Source: Planctomycetota bacterium (GTDB lineage Bacteria; Planctomycetota; UBA8742; SKZP01; JAIOTL01). Taken from it: 5,321 bases of DNA. The position numbers and the translations under genes are program-made. The notes beneath the pieces were generated by a model. The model was not told where the DNA came from, made no database searches, and saw nothing but the letters and a program-made list of their open reading frames with translations. The stretch lies in NCBI GenBank assembly GCA_021106775.1, contig JAIOTL010000282.1, positions 1-5,321 on the forward strand, read 5' to 3'. Below are positions 1 to 5,321 of the stretch, in pieces (within the stretch, counting starts at the first letter, position 1; every line of letters starts with the position of its first letter).

Positions 1-365
1 GTAATTATGCTGTAAATAATCGGCAAACCCGTCTCAATCCCAATGTTTGCAATCGCTTTGGCACTTTCCGAGGCGATTATATCAAAATGCGGAGTGCCAC
101 CACGGATAACCGCGCCAAGGCACAAAATCCCGTCATATTTCTCCTTCTTCACCAGGTTTTTCGCTGCGATGCCAATCTCAAACGCTCCTGGAACCCAGAA
201 AACATCAAGATTCTGCATGTCGAACTTGAGCCGACCAAGTGCATCAACAGCACCACCCAGAAGCTTGGAACTGATTAATTCGTTAAAACGTGAAATTACA
301 ATAGCAATTTTTGCTTTCTCAGGCGCAACAAGCTCGCCCTGATACGTGTTAAATTCGTTATTCAT
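1..365 (-). CDS. ribH: 6,7-dimethyl-8-ribityllumazine synthase, 3' end cut off by the window edge
   Basis: Lumazine synthase condenses 5-amino-6-ribitylamino-uracil with 3,4-dihydroxy-2-butanone 4-phosphate to give 6,7-dimethyl-8-ribityllumazine, the penultimate step of riboflavin synthesis, in the cytoplasm. Reading leftward from ATG at 365-363, 121 full codons are visible of the 150-160 usual for the family. Family signatures appear in order: VISRFNELISSKLLGGAVDAL (residues about 23-43), the substrate-binding WVPGAFEI (about 57-64), and LGAVIRGGTPHFD (about 83-95), whose PHFD histidine matches the catalytic histidine. A PIIYSII stretch sits where many family members read PV-x-FG-x-LT. The position after HFD is Ile where Tyr is common, a mild divergence. 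The start is supported by an AAAAGAGG ribosome site just upstream. The gene diverges from the coiled-coil gene, and no other riboflavin gene is visible. The identification is secure; the missing C-terminus lies left of the window. Confidence 0.95.
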   Translation of the reverse strand, partial: MNNEFNTYQGELVAPEKAKIAIVISRFNELISSKLLGGAVDALGRLKFDMQNLDVFWVPGAFEIGIAAKNLVKKEKYDGILCLGAVIRGGTPHFDIIASESAKAIANIGIETGLPIIYSII

Positions 366-369
366 AAAA

Positions 370-377
370 CCTCTTTT
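370..377 (-). promoter_or_regulatory. Ribosome binding site of ribH
   Basis: On the minus strand AAAAGAGG lies 4 bases upstream of the ATG at 365-363, a good Shine-Dalgarno match at short spacing. It fixes the ribH start. Confidence 0.6.
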
Positions 378-421
378 GAATATTACTAATAGTTTTTCAA
401 ATGTATCATATGCTCAACAAT

Positions 422-450
422 CTTATAATATAAAAATTATAACCTGTAAA
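422..450 (-). promoter_or_regulatory. Candidate promoter for ribH
   Basis: Read on the minus strand, TTTACA at 450-445 and TATAAG at 427-422 are separated by 17 bases, which suits a housekeeping sigma factor. The -10 lacks the usual final T. The region is so AT-rich that chance matches are expected; another -10-like sequence, TATGAT, lies at 410-405. The leader would be about 50 bases long. Confidence 0.3.
423..442. repeat. Inverted repeat TTATAAT / ATTATAA over the ribH -10 region
   Basis: Perfect 7-base arms at 423-429 and 436-442 flank a 6-base A-rich centre. The dyad overlaps the candidate ribH -10 element, where an operator could act. Because the arms contain only A and T and the region is AT-rich, a chance palindrome is quite possible. 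Confidence 0.3.
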
Positions 451-458
451 GAAAGCTA

Positions 459-472
459 TCAAGGATGCTTGA
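459..472. repeat. Short dyad TCAAG-N4-CTTGA at the coiled-coil gene promoter
   Basis: Perfect 5-base arms at 459-463 and 468-472 are separated by GATG. The right arm overlaps the candidate -35 of the rightward promoter, so a repressor site is conceivable. The arms are too short to be convincing alone. Confidence 0.25.
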
Positions 473-498
473 GATATTACGATGAGTAAGTATATTAT
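469..498 (+). promoter_or_regulatory. Candidate promoter for the coiled-coil / FHA-kinase gene pair
   Basis: TTGAGA at 469-474 and TATTAT at 493-498 are 18 bases apart, a reasonable sigma-70-type arrangement. Transcription would start near 505, leaving a leader of about 30 bases before the ATG at 534. A perfect TATAAT at 498-503 is also present but sits 23 bases from this -35, so the exact -10 is uncertain. No other promoter is evident before the downstream FHA gene. Confidence 0.4.
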
Positions 499-521
499 AT
501 AATAATCTAATATTTAGTTCT

Positions 522-527
522 AAGGAG
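522..527 (+). promoter_or_regulatory. Ribosome binding site that decides the ATG start at 534
   Basis: AAGGAG is followed by 6 bases and then ATG at 534-536, which is near-ideal spacing. An in-frame TTG at 528 touches the Shine-Dalgarno sequence directly and so cannot be its start. The protein therefore begins MSENRG. Confidence 0.8.
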
Positions 528-533
528 TTGACA

Positions 534-3500
534 ATGAGCGAAAATCGTGGAGAAGCCAAAGAGTTATGGAGTGAAGCACTCGAAGAAGACAGTGCCCCAG
601 CATTCGAACTGAAGACTTACGACCAATTTATAGAATTTATCAAGATTGGAATCACTTCCTTATTAGAGCATAAAAAACTAGATAAAATCGAGAATATTAC
701 TGATAAACACAAAGATTTAATTGCAGATATTGGGTTGTTTGTTTCCTTACACGGTTCATATCAAAAATGGAAGACAGAAAGGAAGCAGCTTAAGGGAAAG
801 CTTGCACAGGCGTTAAATCAGCTAAAGAAGTTAACTGTTGAGCATAAAACACTAAACAATATGAAAGTCGAACTTGAAAAGAGAAGCAAGGATTTAGAGC
901 TTAAATCTACCGAGATAGATATTAGAAAAAGCGAGTTTGAGAAAAGTAATATAAAGCTTGAGTCCGAAATAGACACTCTTAACAAGCGAATCAACTCACT
1001 AAACAAGGAAATACTTGATTTAAGCCATGATGATGGTGAAAGTACAGATTCGATTACATCCGAACAACTAAATGATTTGTGTAATGCAAAGATAGATTAT
1101 GAGCTTGAATTATTCGATAAACAAGAAAAAATCGAATTGCTCATGAACGAAATCAATGCTGTTGATTTGCATCGTAAGGGAATGGATGAAATTCTTATCG
1201 AATACAGGACATATCTCGGCAAAATAGACGAATTCCGGTTTGATTACGACCAGATGAAATCGAAGTTTGAAGAACTGGACAAAGAGCGTCGGTTGTTGAT
1301 TGAAAGCAGGAAAAGCGAGGAAGATAAACTTGAGAAGATTGATTCGGATATTGATGCGAAAAAGCTTGATGAATCTAAGATACAGGACGAATTAAACAAA
1401 TATGATGTTGAGATTGAGAAAATCAACAAAGAAAAAACTGAAAAATTGAATATGTTGGAAGAAAAACAGTACGATATCGAAAAAGCAAAAGCAAAATTAG
1501 ATGAAATCTTAAACCAAAAAGGCGACCTCGACGAGAAAGTACAGGAAGTTCGTACAAAAGCCAGAAACTTTGACGACAAAATTACCAAAAAACAAAATAT
1601 GCTGCGTTTGAAAATAACCGAAGCAACTAATACTCAAGCAAAAATTGATGACAAGCTTACGAATATTGACCAGGTTGCAACTCTGACTCAGAATTTGCAC
1701 GATATTCGTTTGCAAATTGATAATCTCAAGGAAGAGATTGTCTTATTAGAGCAGGAAAAACAGGAGAACGATTCTAAACTAGCAGATTTAACTAAAAATC
1801 ACAATGTTTTTGAGACTCAGATATCAGAGATTCGAAGGAAAATAGAAAGCTCAGCATCGAATCTGCTTGACATGCAAAATGAAGTGCGAAAAAGTGAAAA
1901 CCGCATCGACACGATTGAAATCGAAAAGAAAACGATCATTGCACAGAACCAGGAACTACTTGACGAACTTGCTAACATGAAGGTTAGAAAAGAACAGCTT
2001 GAGGAGAAAATTGTCAGCATGGAAACAGAAGTCGCTGAGATGTCCAGTGCAATTGACGAGGAAAACAAAAAAATCAATCAAGGGCTCATTGAAAGAAATG
2101 TATTTTTTGAGAGGAAATACGAGTTTGAGAACAGAATTATCGGGCTTGAAGGATTATTACCGCGAAATTCCGAGCAAGAATCAGAAAAATCAATGCCAAT
2201 GCCTTTCGGTGCTGAATGGACACCAGAAACTCCTGAAGACCCGGATTTAGCAAACTTGGGTAAAAAAGACCAATTCCTGAATTATAAAAAACTTACCGAT
2301 CTGCGGCATGAGCTTTCAAGTACATTGCCTCGAAAACTCGAGCTTAAGTTCAGGATTGGGGAAATCGAGAACCTGCTTGAAAGAGTGGAAGTTGAATATT
2401 CCAAATCGATCGACGAGAAAAAAACGTTTGAAGCGGAGTCGGAGCAAAAAAATACTGCATTTGAAATTGAAATCGATGGCTTCAAAACGAAAATTAAAGA
2501 GTTAACTGAAGAAATTACTTCGAGCAATATGAAAAAGATTGAATTGATGGAAGAGAAGGAAAAGCTCTATGCCTCGTTTAAGTCTCAGCCTAAAATGCAA
2601 ACAGACGAAGATGGTAGTGATTTAAGTGAAGATACGGACTCAGCGGAAAACCAGGTAATGAGTTTAATGCGGGAAGAAATTTCTGAAAAGGAAAAAGAGA
2701 TTTTCGATATTGGCGAAAAAATCAACAAATTTGAGACTGAAAAATTGGAATTTCGCAGCAAACTTGAAAACAGTGTGCAGAAACGTGATGAATATAATAG
2801 TAAATTTAACCATGTTGTTAAGCAGTGCGATCGTCTGCTTGAGAGCAAGAGCGAACTTGAGGAAGAACTCAAGAACAAAAGACCGATTTTAAGCAATATC
2901 GTTGTTGAATGTAATAAGACTGAATTAGCGATTACTGAAACAGGTGCGGAATACTATGCCCAGACATCAGAATATGTAAGATTAATTCATCAACTTAAGA
3001 ATCAGAACGAGGAAGTTGCAGTCATTGATGCAGAAATCGAGAACCTCGAAAAAGAATTGAAGCAGATAACCCAAGAAAAAGAGCAGATTAAGGAAATCAA
3101 AAAGCAGGCGATTGAAGAAGAAGATAAGCTAACTGATGAACTGCGGAATATGAAGCTTCTCGCTGAAGTTACTGAAGAAGAAGTTATTGAAACCAAGAAA
3201 CTGCTTGAAGATGCTGAGGAAAAGGTTGAGCATAATGACGATTTGCTTAAGGAATTTTGGCAGAAGATTCACGAGACCGAAAGAGTTATTGTTCAGAACA
3301 AGGAAAGAAAAGAGAAAATTCTCTCAAGCAGAGGGGATTTGGAAGAGCACGTGAACGCAATTGAAGCACTTATGCTGACCAAAGAAAAACTGATGAAATC
3401 CATAAGAGACGAGCATATTAACGCGGATGAGCAGATTGAAGCCCTCAAAACTGAGAAAACTATCACTTTGGTGCAATATGAAAATTCGATTCAGCAAAGG

Positions 3501-4400
3501 AAATATATTGAATCGATTAACGAAGAATTACTGAATAAAATCAAGCAGATCAAGGACAAATACGACAACCTCTACGATGAATACTTAAATAGTGACAGCG
3601 TCGTGAAGGATTTGAAAATCAAATATCCGATTATGGAGAAAGAGCTTGAAAAATCGAGAAGCACTGAAAAAAATGCATTAACCAAACTTATTCAGTTCGA
3701 AGAACAGAACACGCGCAAACAAGACAATACCAAGGCTCTTGAGCTGATGAAATCTGCCCTTAACAAGGATATTGCACAGCTTAAACAGGAACTTAACCAT
3801 GTTCAACTTGAAAAGGGTGATCTTGAGGCAGAGCATGAACAACTAAACATTCAGGTGCAGAAGCAATCGCTCACGATAAATGAATTACGTGAAAAGTTGT
3901 TGTATTTCCAAGAGTTGGAAAGGAAATTTGAAGCATTGAAAAAGCGCAATGAATATCTTGAAGCGGAGATGAAGAAATTCAGCTCACTTCTCGGTTTTGA
4001 GGACATAGATATTACAACTGAACTGAAGCAGAAGTTAATAAATAGTGCGACAATGAATCTCTCAGCAAGATTCCTGCAGAAAGGCTGGGATTACAAAAAA
4101 ACATTTTTGCATCCAGACGAAGTGCAAATAGAAGAAAAGATTTCAGATTCGCTAAATATCCTGTCAAAGCCGTTCGATGCGATGAAATTGCGCTTGAATC
4201 TTCGGAAATTTTTCGAAAGCATTAAAAAAGAGATACCGGAACAACTTGAAAAATACCGTGTATTCTTCGAGAAAAGAACAGATGAGAAGCCATTAAATAA
4301 TACTGAGTTGAAGGAAATATGTTCAATTGCATCATATTTTGGTACAATTGAAGAAATGCTTGAAGGGTTAAAGCAGAATTTGAAAATTTCCGTGCCATAA
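534..4400 (+). CDS. Giant cytoplasmic coiled-coil protein, function unknown (1288 aa)
   Basis: I do not recognise a named family. The protein is complete, with ATG at 534 chosen over the upstream TTG at 528 because of the ribosome site. Residues about 1-75 form a non-coil head with a hydrophobic segment (FIEFIKIGI, about 32-40). Residues about 76-1150 are almost unbroken Lys/Glu-rich heptad-like helix. Breaks occur at about 164-178 (acidic and Ser/Thr-rich), 543-578 (Pro-rich, with TPETPEDPD) and 684-706 (acidic, with TDEDGSD). A tail of about 136 residues from LLGFEDID (about 1152) has aromatic residues and ordinary composition (GWDYKKTFLHPDEV, then FFESIKKEIPEQ), so it probably folds as a helical domain. 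There is no signal peptide or membrane segment. There is no Walker A GxxxxGK[ST] near the N-terminus and no ABC signature near the C-terminus, which argues against SMC, Rad50 or SbcC. A structural or scaffold role is inferred. The FHA/kinase-like gene follows after 31 bp in the same direction, suggesting a shared pathway. Confidence 0.9.
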   Translation: MSENRGEAKELWSEALEEDSAPAFELKTYDQFIEFIKIGITSLLEHKKLDKIENITDKHKDLIADIGLFVSLHGSYQKWKTERKQLKGKLAQALNQLKKLTVEHKTLNNMKVELEKRSKDLELKSTEIDIRKSEFEKSNIKLESEIDTLNKRINSLNKEILDLSHDDGESTDSITSEQLNDLCNAKIDYELELFDKQEKIELLMNEINAVDLHRKGMDEILIEYRTYLGKIDEFRFDYDQMKSKFEELDKERRLLIESRKSEEDKLEKIDSDIDAKKLDESKIQDELNKYDVEIEKINKEKTEKLNMLEEKQYDIEKAKAKLDEILNQKGDLDEKVQEVRTKARNFDDKITKKQNMLRLKITEATNTQAKIDDKLTNIDQVATLTQNLHDIRLQIDNLKEEIVLLEQEKQENDSKLADLTKNHNVFETQISEIRRKIESSASNLLDMQNEVRKSENRIDTIEIEKKTIIAQNQELLDELANMKVRKEQLEEKIVSMETEVAEMSSAIDEENKKINQGLIERNVFFERKYEFENRIIGLEGLLPRNSEQESEKSMPMPFGAEWTPETPEDPDLANLGKKDQFLNYKKLTDLRHELSSTLPRKLELKFRIGEIENLLERVEVEYSKSIDEKKTFEAESEQKNTAFEIEIDGFKTKIKELTEEITSSNMKKIELMEEKEKLYASFKSQPKMQTDEDGSDLSEDTDSAENQVMSLMREEISEKEKEIFDIGEKINKFETEKLEFRSKLENSVQKRDEYNSKFNHVVKQCDRLLESKSELEEELKNKRPILSNIVVECNKTELAITETGAEYYAQTSEYVRLIHQLKNQNEEVAVIDAEIENLEKELKQITQEKEQIKEIKKQAIEEEDKLTDELRNMKLLAEVTEEEVIETKKLLEDAEEKVEHNDDLLKEFWQKIHETERVIVQNKERKEKILSSRGDLEEHVNAIEALMLTKEKLMKSIRDEHINADEQIEALKTEKTITLVQYENSIQQRKYIESINEELLNKIKQIKDKYDNLYDEYLNSDSVVKDLKIKYPIMEKELEKSRSTEKNALTKLIQFEEQNTRKQDNTKALELMKSALNKDIAQLKQELNHVQLEKGDLEAEHEQLNIQVQKQSLTINELREKLLYFQELERKFEALKKRNEYLEAEMKKFSSLLGFEDIDITTELKQKLINSATMNLSARFLQKGWDYKKTFLHPDEVQIEEKISDSLNILSKPFDAMKLRLNLRKFFESIKKEIPEQLEKYRVFFEKRTDEKPLNNTELKEICSIASYFGTIEEMLEGLKQNLKISVP
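1023..1067 (+). other. First break in the coiled coil (acidic, Ser/Thr-rich)
   Basis: Residues about 164-178 (SHDDGESTDSITSEQ) lack heptad hydrophobics and are rich in Asp, Ser and Thr. This is a probable flexible loop between the first coil segment (about 76-163) and the next. It holds several possible phosphorylation sites. Confidence 0.5.
2160..2267 (+). other. Central proline-rich linker of the coiled-coil protein
   Basis: Residues about 543-578 hold seven prolines and the protein's most obvious interruption of helix, close to its midpoint. The core is MPMPFGAEW followed by TPETPEDPD. Such a break would let the two long coil halves bend or fold back on each other. T566 is followed by P-E-D, a Thr-x-x-Asp arrangement that FHA domains can bind once phosphorylated. 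Confidence 0.65.
2583..2651 (+). other. Acidic Ser/Thr linker of the coiled-coil protein
   Basis: Residues about 684-706 start SQPKMQTDEDGSD and continue LSEDTDSAEN. They are acidic, polar and free of heptad hydrophobics, so probably disordered. T690 is followed by D-E-D and T701 sits in EDTDS, both plausible acidic phosphoacceptor contexts. Confidence 0.6.
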
Positions 4401-4417
4401 TTAGATTTTGCCCATTT

Positions 4418-4423
4418 AGGGGA
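4418..4423 (+). promoter_or_regulatory. Ribosome binding site of the FHA/kinase-like gene
   Basis: AGGGGA ends 8 bases before the ATG at 4432-4434. The whole gap after the coiled-coil stop codon is 31 bases and contains neither a hairpin terminator nor a convincing promoter, so the two genes are probably read from one transcript. Confidence 0.7.
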
Positions 4424-4431
4424 TTTTTGTA

Positions 4432-5321
4432 ATGAACATAGTCTTGAAACCGCTTAAAGGACCGACAGCATCGAATAAAAGCGGATTTTTAATAGATTTC
4501 TCGGTTAATCCTCGATTTCTTATCAGTAGAATGAGGAATTGGCGAGAATCGAATAATGACTATGAATTAGGTGACCTTGACGGCATCCCGTGTTTGTTCA
4601 TTAAGGACGGCTATCTGTCATTTCCACATGCAGAGCTGATTTTTGTGGGAGGAAAGATTGGCATCCGTGAAGCACGCGACAACATTAAAAATCATATTTA
4701 TATCAACGTGAAAATTCCCACCCAGACAAATTATATTACAGAATCGATTCTTAAAATCGGGGATTCTATCACTTTCGGCAAGAATGTTTTGAATGTTGAA
4801 GGGCAAAGTCCAGAACAGAAGCTGATTAACCATGTTTATCCCGATTTAACGTACATGGAATCGCTGGTTGAGGGTGGTAGTCTGCGTTTATGCAAGACAA
4901 AAAGCGGACAGGATGTATTCGTCGAGTATTACAAGTATTTAGCACTGACAAGCCATCTCAAACGTCTGCTGCTCGATTTCAAAGACCAATACAACGATCT
5001 GAAGAAAAGATCCGACCATGATGAAAACATCAGACAGATTGTCCCGAAGGTTTTCGATATCGAGTTGATGGAAGGTGACTCCGACGGATTCTTATTCATT
5101 GTCCGAGAGAAAATATACTCACAAAGCCTTGAGCAGATTGTGTTGAAGGATAAAAACCTGTTTACGGTTGAGCAGACAATGGCTTTTGGGGTTCTTCTCA
5201 CCGACGGTCTGCAAAAAATTCAGAAAATTACCAAAAAACGATACCAAAACCTTATTCCCAGAAGCATTCACTACGACATGCATTCCAGTAATCCGCGTGT
5301 TGTGTTCGACAAGGTGATGGA
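4432..5321 (+). CDS. FHA-domain protein with a divergent protein-kinase-like domain, 3' end cut off
   Basis: 296 full codons are visible, with no signal peptide or membrane segment. Residues about 30-124 resemble an FHA domain, a phosphothreonine-peptide reader: LISR (30-33) for the usual IGR, SFPHAEL (63-69) for S-x-x-H-A-x-I, DNIKNHIYIN (83-92) for the S-x-N-G-T-x-V-N strand, and LKIGDSITFG (107-116) for the L-x-x-GD-x-I-x-IG end. Residues from about 140 resemble a Ser/Thr kinase: VEGGSLRL (146-153) as a decayed glycine loop, VFVE (162-165) where VAIK is expected so that Glu replaces the beta-3 Lys, FIVREKIYSQSL (222-233) as hinge, and HYDMHSSN (280-287), which keeps HxDxxxxN of the catalytic loop. 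The DFG region and the rest lie beyond the window. It may be an atypical active kinase (K168 is nearby) or a pseudokinase. The domain calls come from reading motifs by eye, FHA more firmly than kinase. It probably shares a transcript with the coiled-coil gene. Confidence 0.75.
   Translation, partial: MNIVLKPLKGPTASNKSGFLIDFSVNPRFLISRMRNWRESNNDYELGDLDGIPCLFIKDGYLSFPHAELIFVGGKIGIREARDNIKNHIYINVKIPTQTNYITESILKIGDSITFGKNVLNVEGQSPEQKLINHVYPDLTYMESLVEGGSLRLCKTKSGQDVFVEYYKYLALTSHLKRLLLDFKDQYNDLKKRSDHDENIRQIVPKVFDIELMEGDSDGFLFIVREKIYSQSLEQIVLKDKNLFTVEQTMAFGVLLTDGLQKIQKITKKRYQNLIPRSIHYDMHSSNPRVVFDKVM

Follow-up and report, generated by a model that had tools for sequence, protein, structure and literature searches.

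The mycobacterial MurJ (MviN) pseudokinase is phosphorylated by PknB and forms a complex with FhaA (PMC6180346, cited here from excerpts). This pairs an FHA domain with a pseudokinase and passes the phosphothreonine signal of a Hanks-type kinase onto a structural process. As those excerpts describe it, the FHA domain reads the phosphorylated pseudokinase of another, membrane-bound protein. The type VIIb proteins YukC/EssB and YukB/EssC also provide a bacterial pseudokinase bound to FHA domains; according to excerpts of the same kind, YukC cannot bind ATP, it has transmembrane and extracellular parts, and the FHA domains belong to an ATPase (PMC9600267). RsmP, a coiled-coil protein, changes its location upon phosphorylation by PknA and PknL (PMC3296230, excerpts).

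The window, by which we mean the whole 5,321-nucleotide stretch of DNA analysed here, holds a gene for a giant coiled-coil protein (gene 1) followed by a gene for an FHA domain joined to a kinase-like fold (gene 2). Unlike in MurJ-FhaA, the FHA domain and the probable pseudokinase of gene 2 belong to the same soluble protein, whose neighbour is a giant coiled coil. The type VIIb parts are not in the window: we found no EssC ATPase, no WXG100 proteins and no membrane-bound pseudokinase within it. With RsmP, crescentin and intermediate-filament-like coils, the gene 1 protein shares a coiled-coil rod without enzymatic motifs, but it differs from RsmP and crescentin in having no family match at cut-off, an FHA-pseudokinase neighbour and a length of 1288 residues. 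In eukaryotic CHK2, an active kinase, an FHA domain lies N-terminal to the kinase fold on one chain; the domain order of gene 2 is the same, whereas most catalytic residues are lost in the gene 2 family. Since architecture and family profiles differ, we file the pair under none of MurJ-FhaA, YukC-YukB or RsmP. By analogy, it may at most work like these precedents.

Gene layout and linkage

Three genes make up the window: a partial ribH on the minus strand, and the coiled-coil gene and the FHA-kinase gene on the plus strand.

3-365, minus strand: ribH (lumazine synthase), partial, divergent from the coiled-coil gene (PF00885, E 2.8e-35)
534..4400, plus strand: gene 1, a 1288-aa coiled-coil rod without ATPase motif or membrane segment (ORF, profiles, motif scan)
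4418..4423, plus strand: AGGGGA, likely ribosome site of gene 2 (sequence)

Gene 1 is an ORF of 1288 codons running from the ATG at 534 to a stop at 4400; the ORF listing also gives an alternative TTG start two codons before this ATG, which would make the protein 1290 aa long. Gene 2 starts at ATG 4432 on the plus strand and encodes 296 aa, its ORF being open at the window end. The coding of both genes is real, as it is backed by protein relatives at 72% (gene 1) and 55-96% (gene 2) identity. The first-pass annotation had described co-directional genes 31 bp apart, with strong ribosome sites and no terminator between them. The ORF coordinates confirm the gap (4401-4431, same strand), and no terminator-like site lies between the genes: a scan of positions 300-4600 found a single site, versus 2.6 expected by chance, on the opposite strand and inside gene 1. 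The claim about ribosome sites holds for gene 1, where AAGGAG ends 6 bp ahead of the ATG, but not for gene 2, where AGGGGA ends 8 bp ahead of the ATG and, as a less perfect match, makes a merely moderate site. Searches of Rfam returned no match up to E 1.

The adjacency is observed in one contig, which ends within gene 2. Contig sizes differ between the coiled-coil relative P0007 (7031), the FHA-kinase relatives (1964, 1571, 2715 and 769) and the window (5321), and hence the window is the one contig known with both genes. This weighs little, because contig ends may simply cut genes.

Two overlapping promoter-like sites (10/12) lie at window positions 469-498 (plus strand), in the divergent gap ahead of the coiled-coil gene; over the whole region there are 13 such sites versus 11.1 expected, no excess over chance. 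The ribH product is at most 61% identical to any relative compared, the best being from an Ignavibacteriales MAG, in a scan where only genomes with an exact shared 8-residue word can appear. In a ribH tree of 81 rows the window sequence sits on an end branch of 0.9 and belongs to no supported group.

The coiled-coil rod

The gene 1 protein is rich in Glu (15.8%), Lys (13.0%) and Leu (11.5%) and poor in Pro (1.2%) and Gly (1.9%). A hydrophobic period of 3.3-3.8, best near 3.5, was found in 11 of 45 of its 56-residue windows (P ≤ 0.05 against shuffles) and, by the same test, in 5 of 44 windows of P0007. The latter, its relative of 1286 aa, is 72% identical to it from end to end. A motif scan detected neither Walker A nor the ABC signature in the gene 1 protein, which also lacks any membrane-type hydrophobic stretch; in P0007 a single Walker A-like string occurs, at a position that the gene 1 protein does not share. 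Composition, periodicity and the motif scan thus uphold the initial description of a 1288-residue coiled-coil protein without ATPase motifs. We read this protein as a putative rod with conserved ends and a hinge, based on the following regions.

534..863, plus strand: rod N-terminus, conserved (residues 1-110; identity to P0007 80-85%)
2142..2333, plus strand: proline-rich acidic break, residues 537-600, a candidate flexible hinge (prolines, conservation in P0007)
2220-2222, plus strand: T563, candidate phosphosite in the hinge (conserved in P0007)
2229-2231, plus strand: T566, candidate phosphosite in the hinge (conserved in P0007)
2583..2669, plus strand: a second linker of acidic character within the rod (residues 684-712; block 681-720 has 52% identity)
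3951..4400, plus strand: rod C-terminus, conserved (residues 1140-1288 plus stop codon; identity to P0007)

In 40-residue blocks, identity to P0007 is 80-85% over residues 1-120 and 75-90% from 1001 to the end, and goes down to 42-55% in four blocks between these conserved ends. The N-terminal region has no match among PDB sequences, and the best PDB sequence match of the C-terminal region (E 0.043) is not meaningful. Seven of the 16 rod prolines cluster at residues 543-599, where the two proteins have the string PFGxEWTxETxEDPDxAN in common. T563, T566 and, in the second linker, T690 are kept in both. Conservation does not set the hinge threonines apart, however: of 62 threonines in the rod, 38 are shared with P0007, and at 7 of these 38 both proteins carry an acidic residue at +3. 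The hinge threonines are candidate sites of phosphorylation and do not count as evidence for it.

No Pfam family matches the gene 1 protein. The annotation had also raised the prospect of the coil falling into a known unrelated family; no family model at cut-off places it in one. SMC/Rad50 identity was rejected: NCBIfam SMC models match coil stretches only, with at most 74.6 bits versus a cut-off of 567.35, and the head motifs (Walker A, Walker B, ABC signature) are absent from the gene 1 protein. We likewise rejected a crescentin or intermediate-filament-like identity (P0007 scores 18.9 bits to Rod_CreS versus a cut-off of 100), as well as tropomyosin and other coil matches, all below cut-off.

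A divergent FHA domain

Taken alone, the gene 2 piece in the window gives neither an FHA nor a kinase match at useful E in Pfam or PDB sequences; both folds are established by profiles built with relatives.

4432..4803, plus strand: divergent FHA domain, residues 1-124 (profile-profile comparison)
4528-4530, plus strand: FHA residue R33, kept
4618-4620, plus strand: FHA residue S63, kept
4627-4629, plus strand: FHA residue H66, kept
4690-4692, plus strand: FHA residue N87, kept
4837..5319, plus strand: residue 136 onwards, first part of a kinase-like domain that is probably a pseudokinase (relatives P0003, P0004, P0005; cut by the window end)

Against a reference profile of 29 FHA domains from five genomes (30 loci less the partial match L132), hhalign gave a probability of 94.4% with E 9.1e-8 across 69 aligned columns. 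None of 40 controls, made by scrambling the columns (39) or by reversal (one), exceeded 4.7%. With PF00498, the first 134 residues of the gene 2 protein as a single sequence scored E 0.068; the best value among three FHA-kinase members was E 0.0019, all three being below cut-off. FHA domains contact phosphothreonine through an Arg, a Ser, the His of SxxH and an Asn. In the hhalign alignment S63, H66 and N87 fall on the SRxHA and NG positions; R33, within ISR, lies ahead of the aligned block, and its correspondence to the usual GR is one of position only. The three members compared share all four residues (3/3). The glycine of NG is replaced by H88, and there is an insert ahead of LKIGDSI. Judged from these residues, the domain may still be able to bind phosphothreonine, as the adaptor model proposed below would have it. 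A structure model of the FHA piece had a mean pLDDT of 42, and the best 50 of 103 rows of a fold search with it contained no FHA structure (best E 1.7). Lipoyl-domain-like PDB matches of this region (E 0.065 and above) were dismissed as chance.

A probable pseudokinase domain

The part of gene 2 inside the window is too short to reveal the kinase fold by itself (PDB sequences; 5.2 bits), and the domain is seen in longer relatives, P0003 (446 aa) and P0004 (420 aa). P0003 matches a PHROG kinase family (E 1.1e-10), and a profile search matched the PDB kinase 4eqm (E 9.1e-7). Comparison by hhalign with kinases of other genomes gave 98.6% (E 9.2e-16), versus at most 5.1% for 20 controls. The best 50 rows listed by Foldseek for the P0003 model (pLDDT 60) were all kinase entries. 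The fragment P0005 passes the PF07714 kinase model (24.6 bits versus a cut-off of 23.1) and is the sole relative to pass any family model. Together with the FHA comparison (94.4%), the 98.6% kinase match supports the earlier reading of an FHA-like domain joined to a divergent kinase fold.

For the comparison of residues, 25 kinases were aligned, chosen from the 26 (of 36 kinase matches) whose HRD loop is canonical. PPE and the C-lobe are kept. The glycine loop is lost, the beta3 VAIK lysine is replaced by E165, DFG has become D[VI][NQE] (Asp kept, glycine lost), and the SDIY of helix F reads SQIY, losing its aspartate. Because of these four losses, the domain is probably a pseudokinase, as far as residues can tell. 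The position of HRD depends on register: HMMER and MAFFT place YQN there and hhalign places HYD. With this Asp register-dependent and the VAIK lysine, glycine loop and DFG glycine lost, the residue set expected of an active protein kinase is incomplete. If the hhalign register is right, P0001, P0004 and P0005 have an odd feature in this loop, HYDxxxxN, which resembles the HGDxxxxN loop of aminoglycoside/choline-kinase-like folds; the N at +5 occurs in these three of four members, P0003 having T. All three members compared have K168 (3/3). Matches to the defence kinase PD-T4-6 (best 5.9e-10), to MAD6 (28 bits versus 460) and to JetC were discarded as generic kinase or coil matches. Behind its kinase-like domain, P0003 has a low-complexity Ser/Thr-rich tail (residues 420-446) that is not seen in P0004.

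Relatives and distribution

Both protein families are very rare among the approximately 5.8 billion proteins searched. Sequence and profile searches found five FHA-kinases, the window's own included; the four relatives of gene 2 are 96, 84, 55 and 95% identical to it, the last over 28% of the query. The coiled-coil search found two proteins, the window's own and P0007, having scored only the 7978 candidates that shared most words. A hit in these searches depends on shared five-residue words and on comparable length, so there may be further members that are more distant or fragmentary. By inspection, P0002 (96% identical to gene 2) has a frame change in its last ~30 residues (compare window ~5225-5319), explained either by misassembly or by a close relative carrying a broken copy.

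An exact-word scan of GTDB contigs with P0003 gave no relative. Viral contigs had no match to profile A2, built from three FHA-kinases, or to A3, with two short patterns scanned for each, and phage and plasmid records held no relative of P0004; a phage or plasmid origin, lacking relatives in phage, plasmid or viral records, was rejected. No FHA-kinase orthologue was found in 1679 genome searches (of overlapping genomes) with profile A2, a blank that comes without a positive control and from phyla chosen by ribH matches, which may miss the right one. At E ≤ 1e-3 this profile matched 1/12, 24/197, 1/124, 2/23, 0/17, 0/2, 20/82 and 37/147 genomes; at E ≤ 1e-8 it matched 0/395, 0/296 and 0/384. 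All genome matches listed start at profile position 204 or beyond, and hence cover a kinase-like domain but not the FHA part of this family. Among 7000 ORFs from 119 loci, none matched the FHA half of the profile. The source lineage is poorly sampled in the collections searched.

For neither the coiled-coil nor the FHA-kinase gene of the window did any family model score up to its curated cut-off, and we found no description of a coiled-coil and FHA-pseudokinase pair in the open-licence literature. Within these databases and this literature, the suggestion that the pair is not a described system is borne out. From its sequence, the locus is best described as a real, unnamed family-level variant with a putative function.

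Proposed mechanism and alternatives

The two genes, their folds, the residues kept and lost, and the linkage in this contig are observed directly. Building on them, we infer a contact between the rod and the FHA protein, its site, an outside kinase and a purpose. The gene 2 product would be a soluble adaptor, with a phosphothreonine-binding FHA domain fused to a non-catalytic kinase fold that serves as a binding platform, and the gene 1 product a long coiled-coil rod, conserved at both ends and interrupted by a flexible hinge rich in acidic residues and proline. Threonines on the rod, or on some partner protein, would be phosphorylated by a Ser/Thr kinase whose gene lies elsewhere; T563 and T566 in TPETPEDPD are the first candidate sites, followed by T690. 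The FHA domain would bind the phosphorylated mark and the pseudokinase would bring in or position a third component, so that phosphorylation would govern the assembly or the cargo of the scaffold. That the FHA-pseudokinase is such an adaptor, reading phosphothreonine written on the rod or a partner, is our tentative preference, held at clearly less than even odds. It is supported by the FHA and kinase profiles, the residue losses, the 31-bp linkage, the conservation of T563 and T566, and the analogy to MurJ-FhaA and RsmP. It is weakened by an adjacency known from a single contig, hinge sites that are not special, an FHA domain below the Pfam cut-off and weak structure models; that the window has no kinase or phosphatase gene beyond genes 1 and 2 also counts against it. 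A narrower form, in which a dedicated non-enzymatic FHA-pseudokinase docks on phosphothreonines of the rod hinge and the two genes make a phosphorylation-switched scaffold confined to a barely sampled lineage, seems unlikely. If the partnership is true, a one-chain FHA-pseudokinase adaptor joins the few bacterial structural controls that combine phosphothreonine reading with a dead kinase, and it does so tied to a giant coiled-coil rod. If not, two orphan protein families remain, in a poorly sampled lineage.

The genes might instead be chance neighbours, the coil being a free-standing structural protein (of cell shape, the envelope or the chromosome) and the FHA-pseudokinase serving genes to its right, such as a phosphatase, a kinase or a secretion cluster. 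Gene 2 has a ribosome site of its own, the pair is known from one contig, and with gene 2 cut its right-hand neighbours lie outside the window. The shared strand, the 31-bp gap without a terminator-like site and the similar degree of rarity of the two proteins speak against coincidence, and we hold this explanation to be slightly less likely than the adaptor. Much less probable is an atypical active kinase whose HYDxxxxN catalytic loop phosphorylates the rod, with the FHA domain as a substrate-docking part of the CHK2 type. Here the alignment of HYD with HRD by hhalign, the N at +5 in three of four members and the invariance of K168 in three members have to be set against the HMMER and MAFFT alignments, which put YQN at HRD, and against the loss of the glycine loop, beta3 Lys, DFG Gly and helix-F Asp in each register seen.

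Finally, the pair could be one part of a larger envelope or secretion machine, its FHA and pseudokinase parts keeping components in contact as they do in the type VIIb or type VI systems. According to excerpts of the respective reports, the pseudokinase domain of B. subtilis YukC co-purifies with the FHA region of YukB (PMC9600267), and FHA binding to a phosphothreonine of TssL activates the T6SS (PMC3953482). Membership of this pair in such a machine is very unlikely: no secretion gene lies within the window, P0003, P0004, P0006 and P0007 have no membrane-type segment, and gene 2 carries its FHA domain and pseudokinase on one chain.
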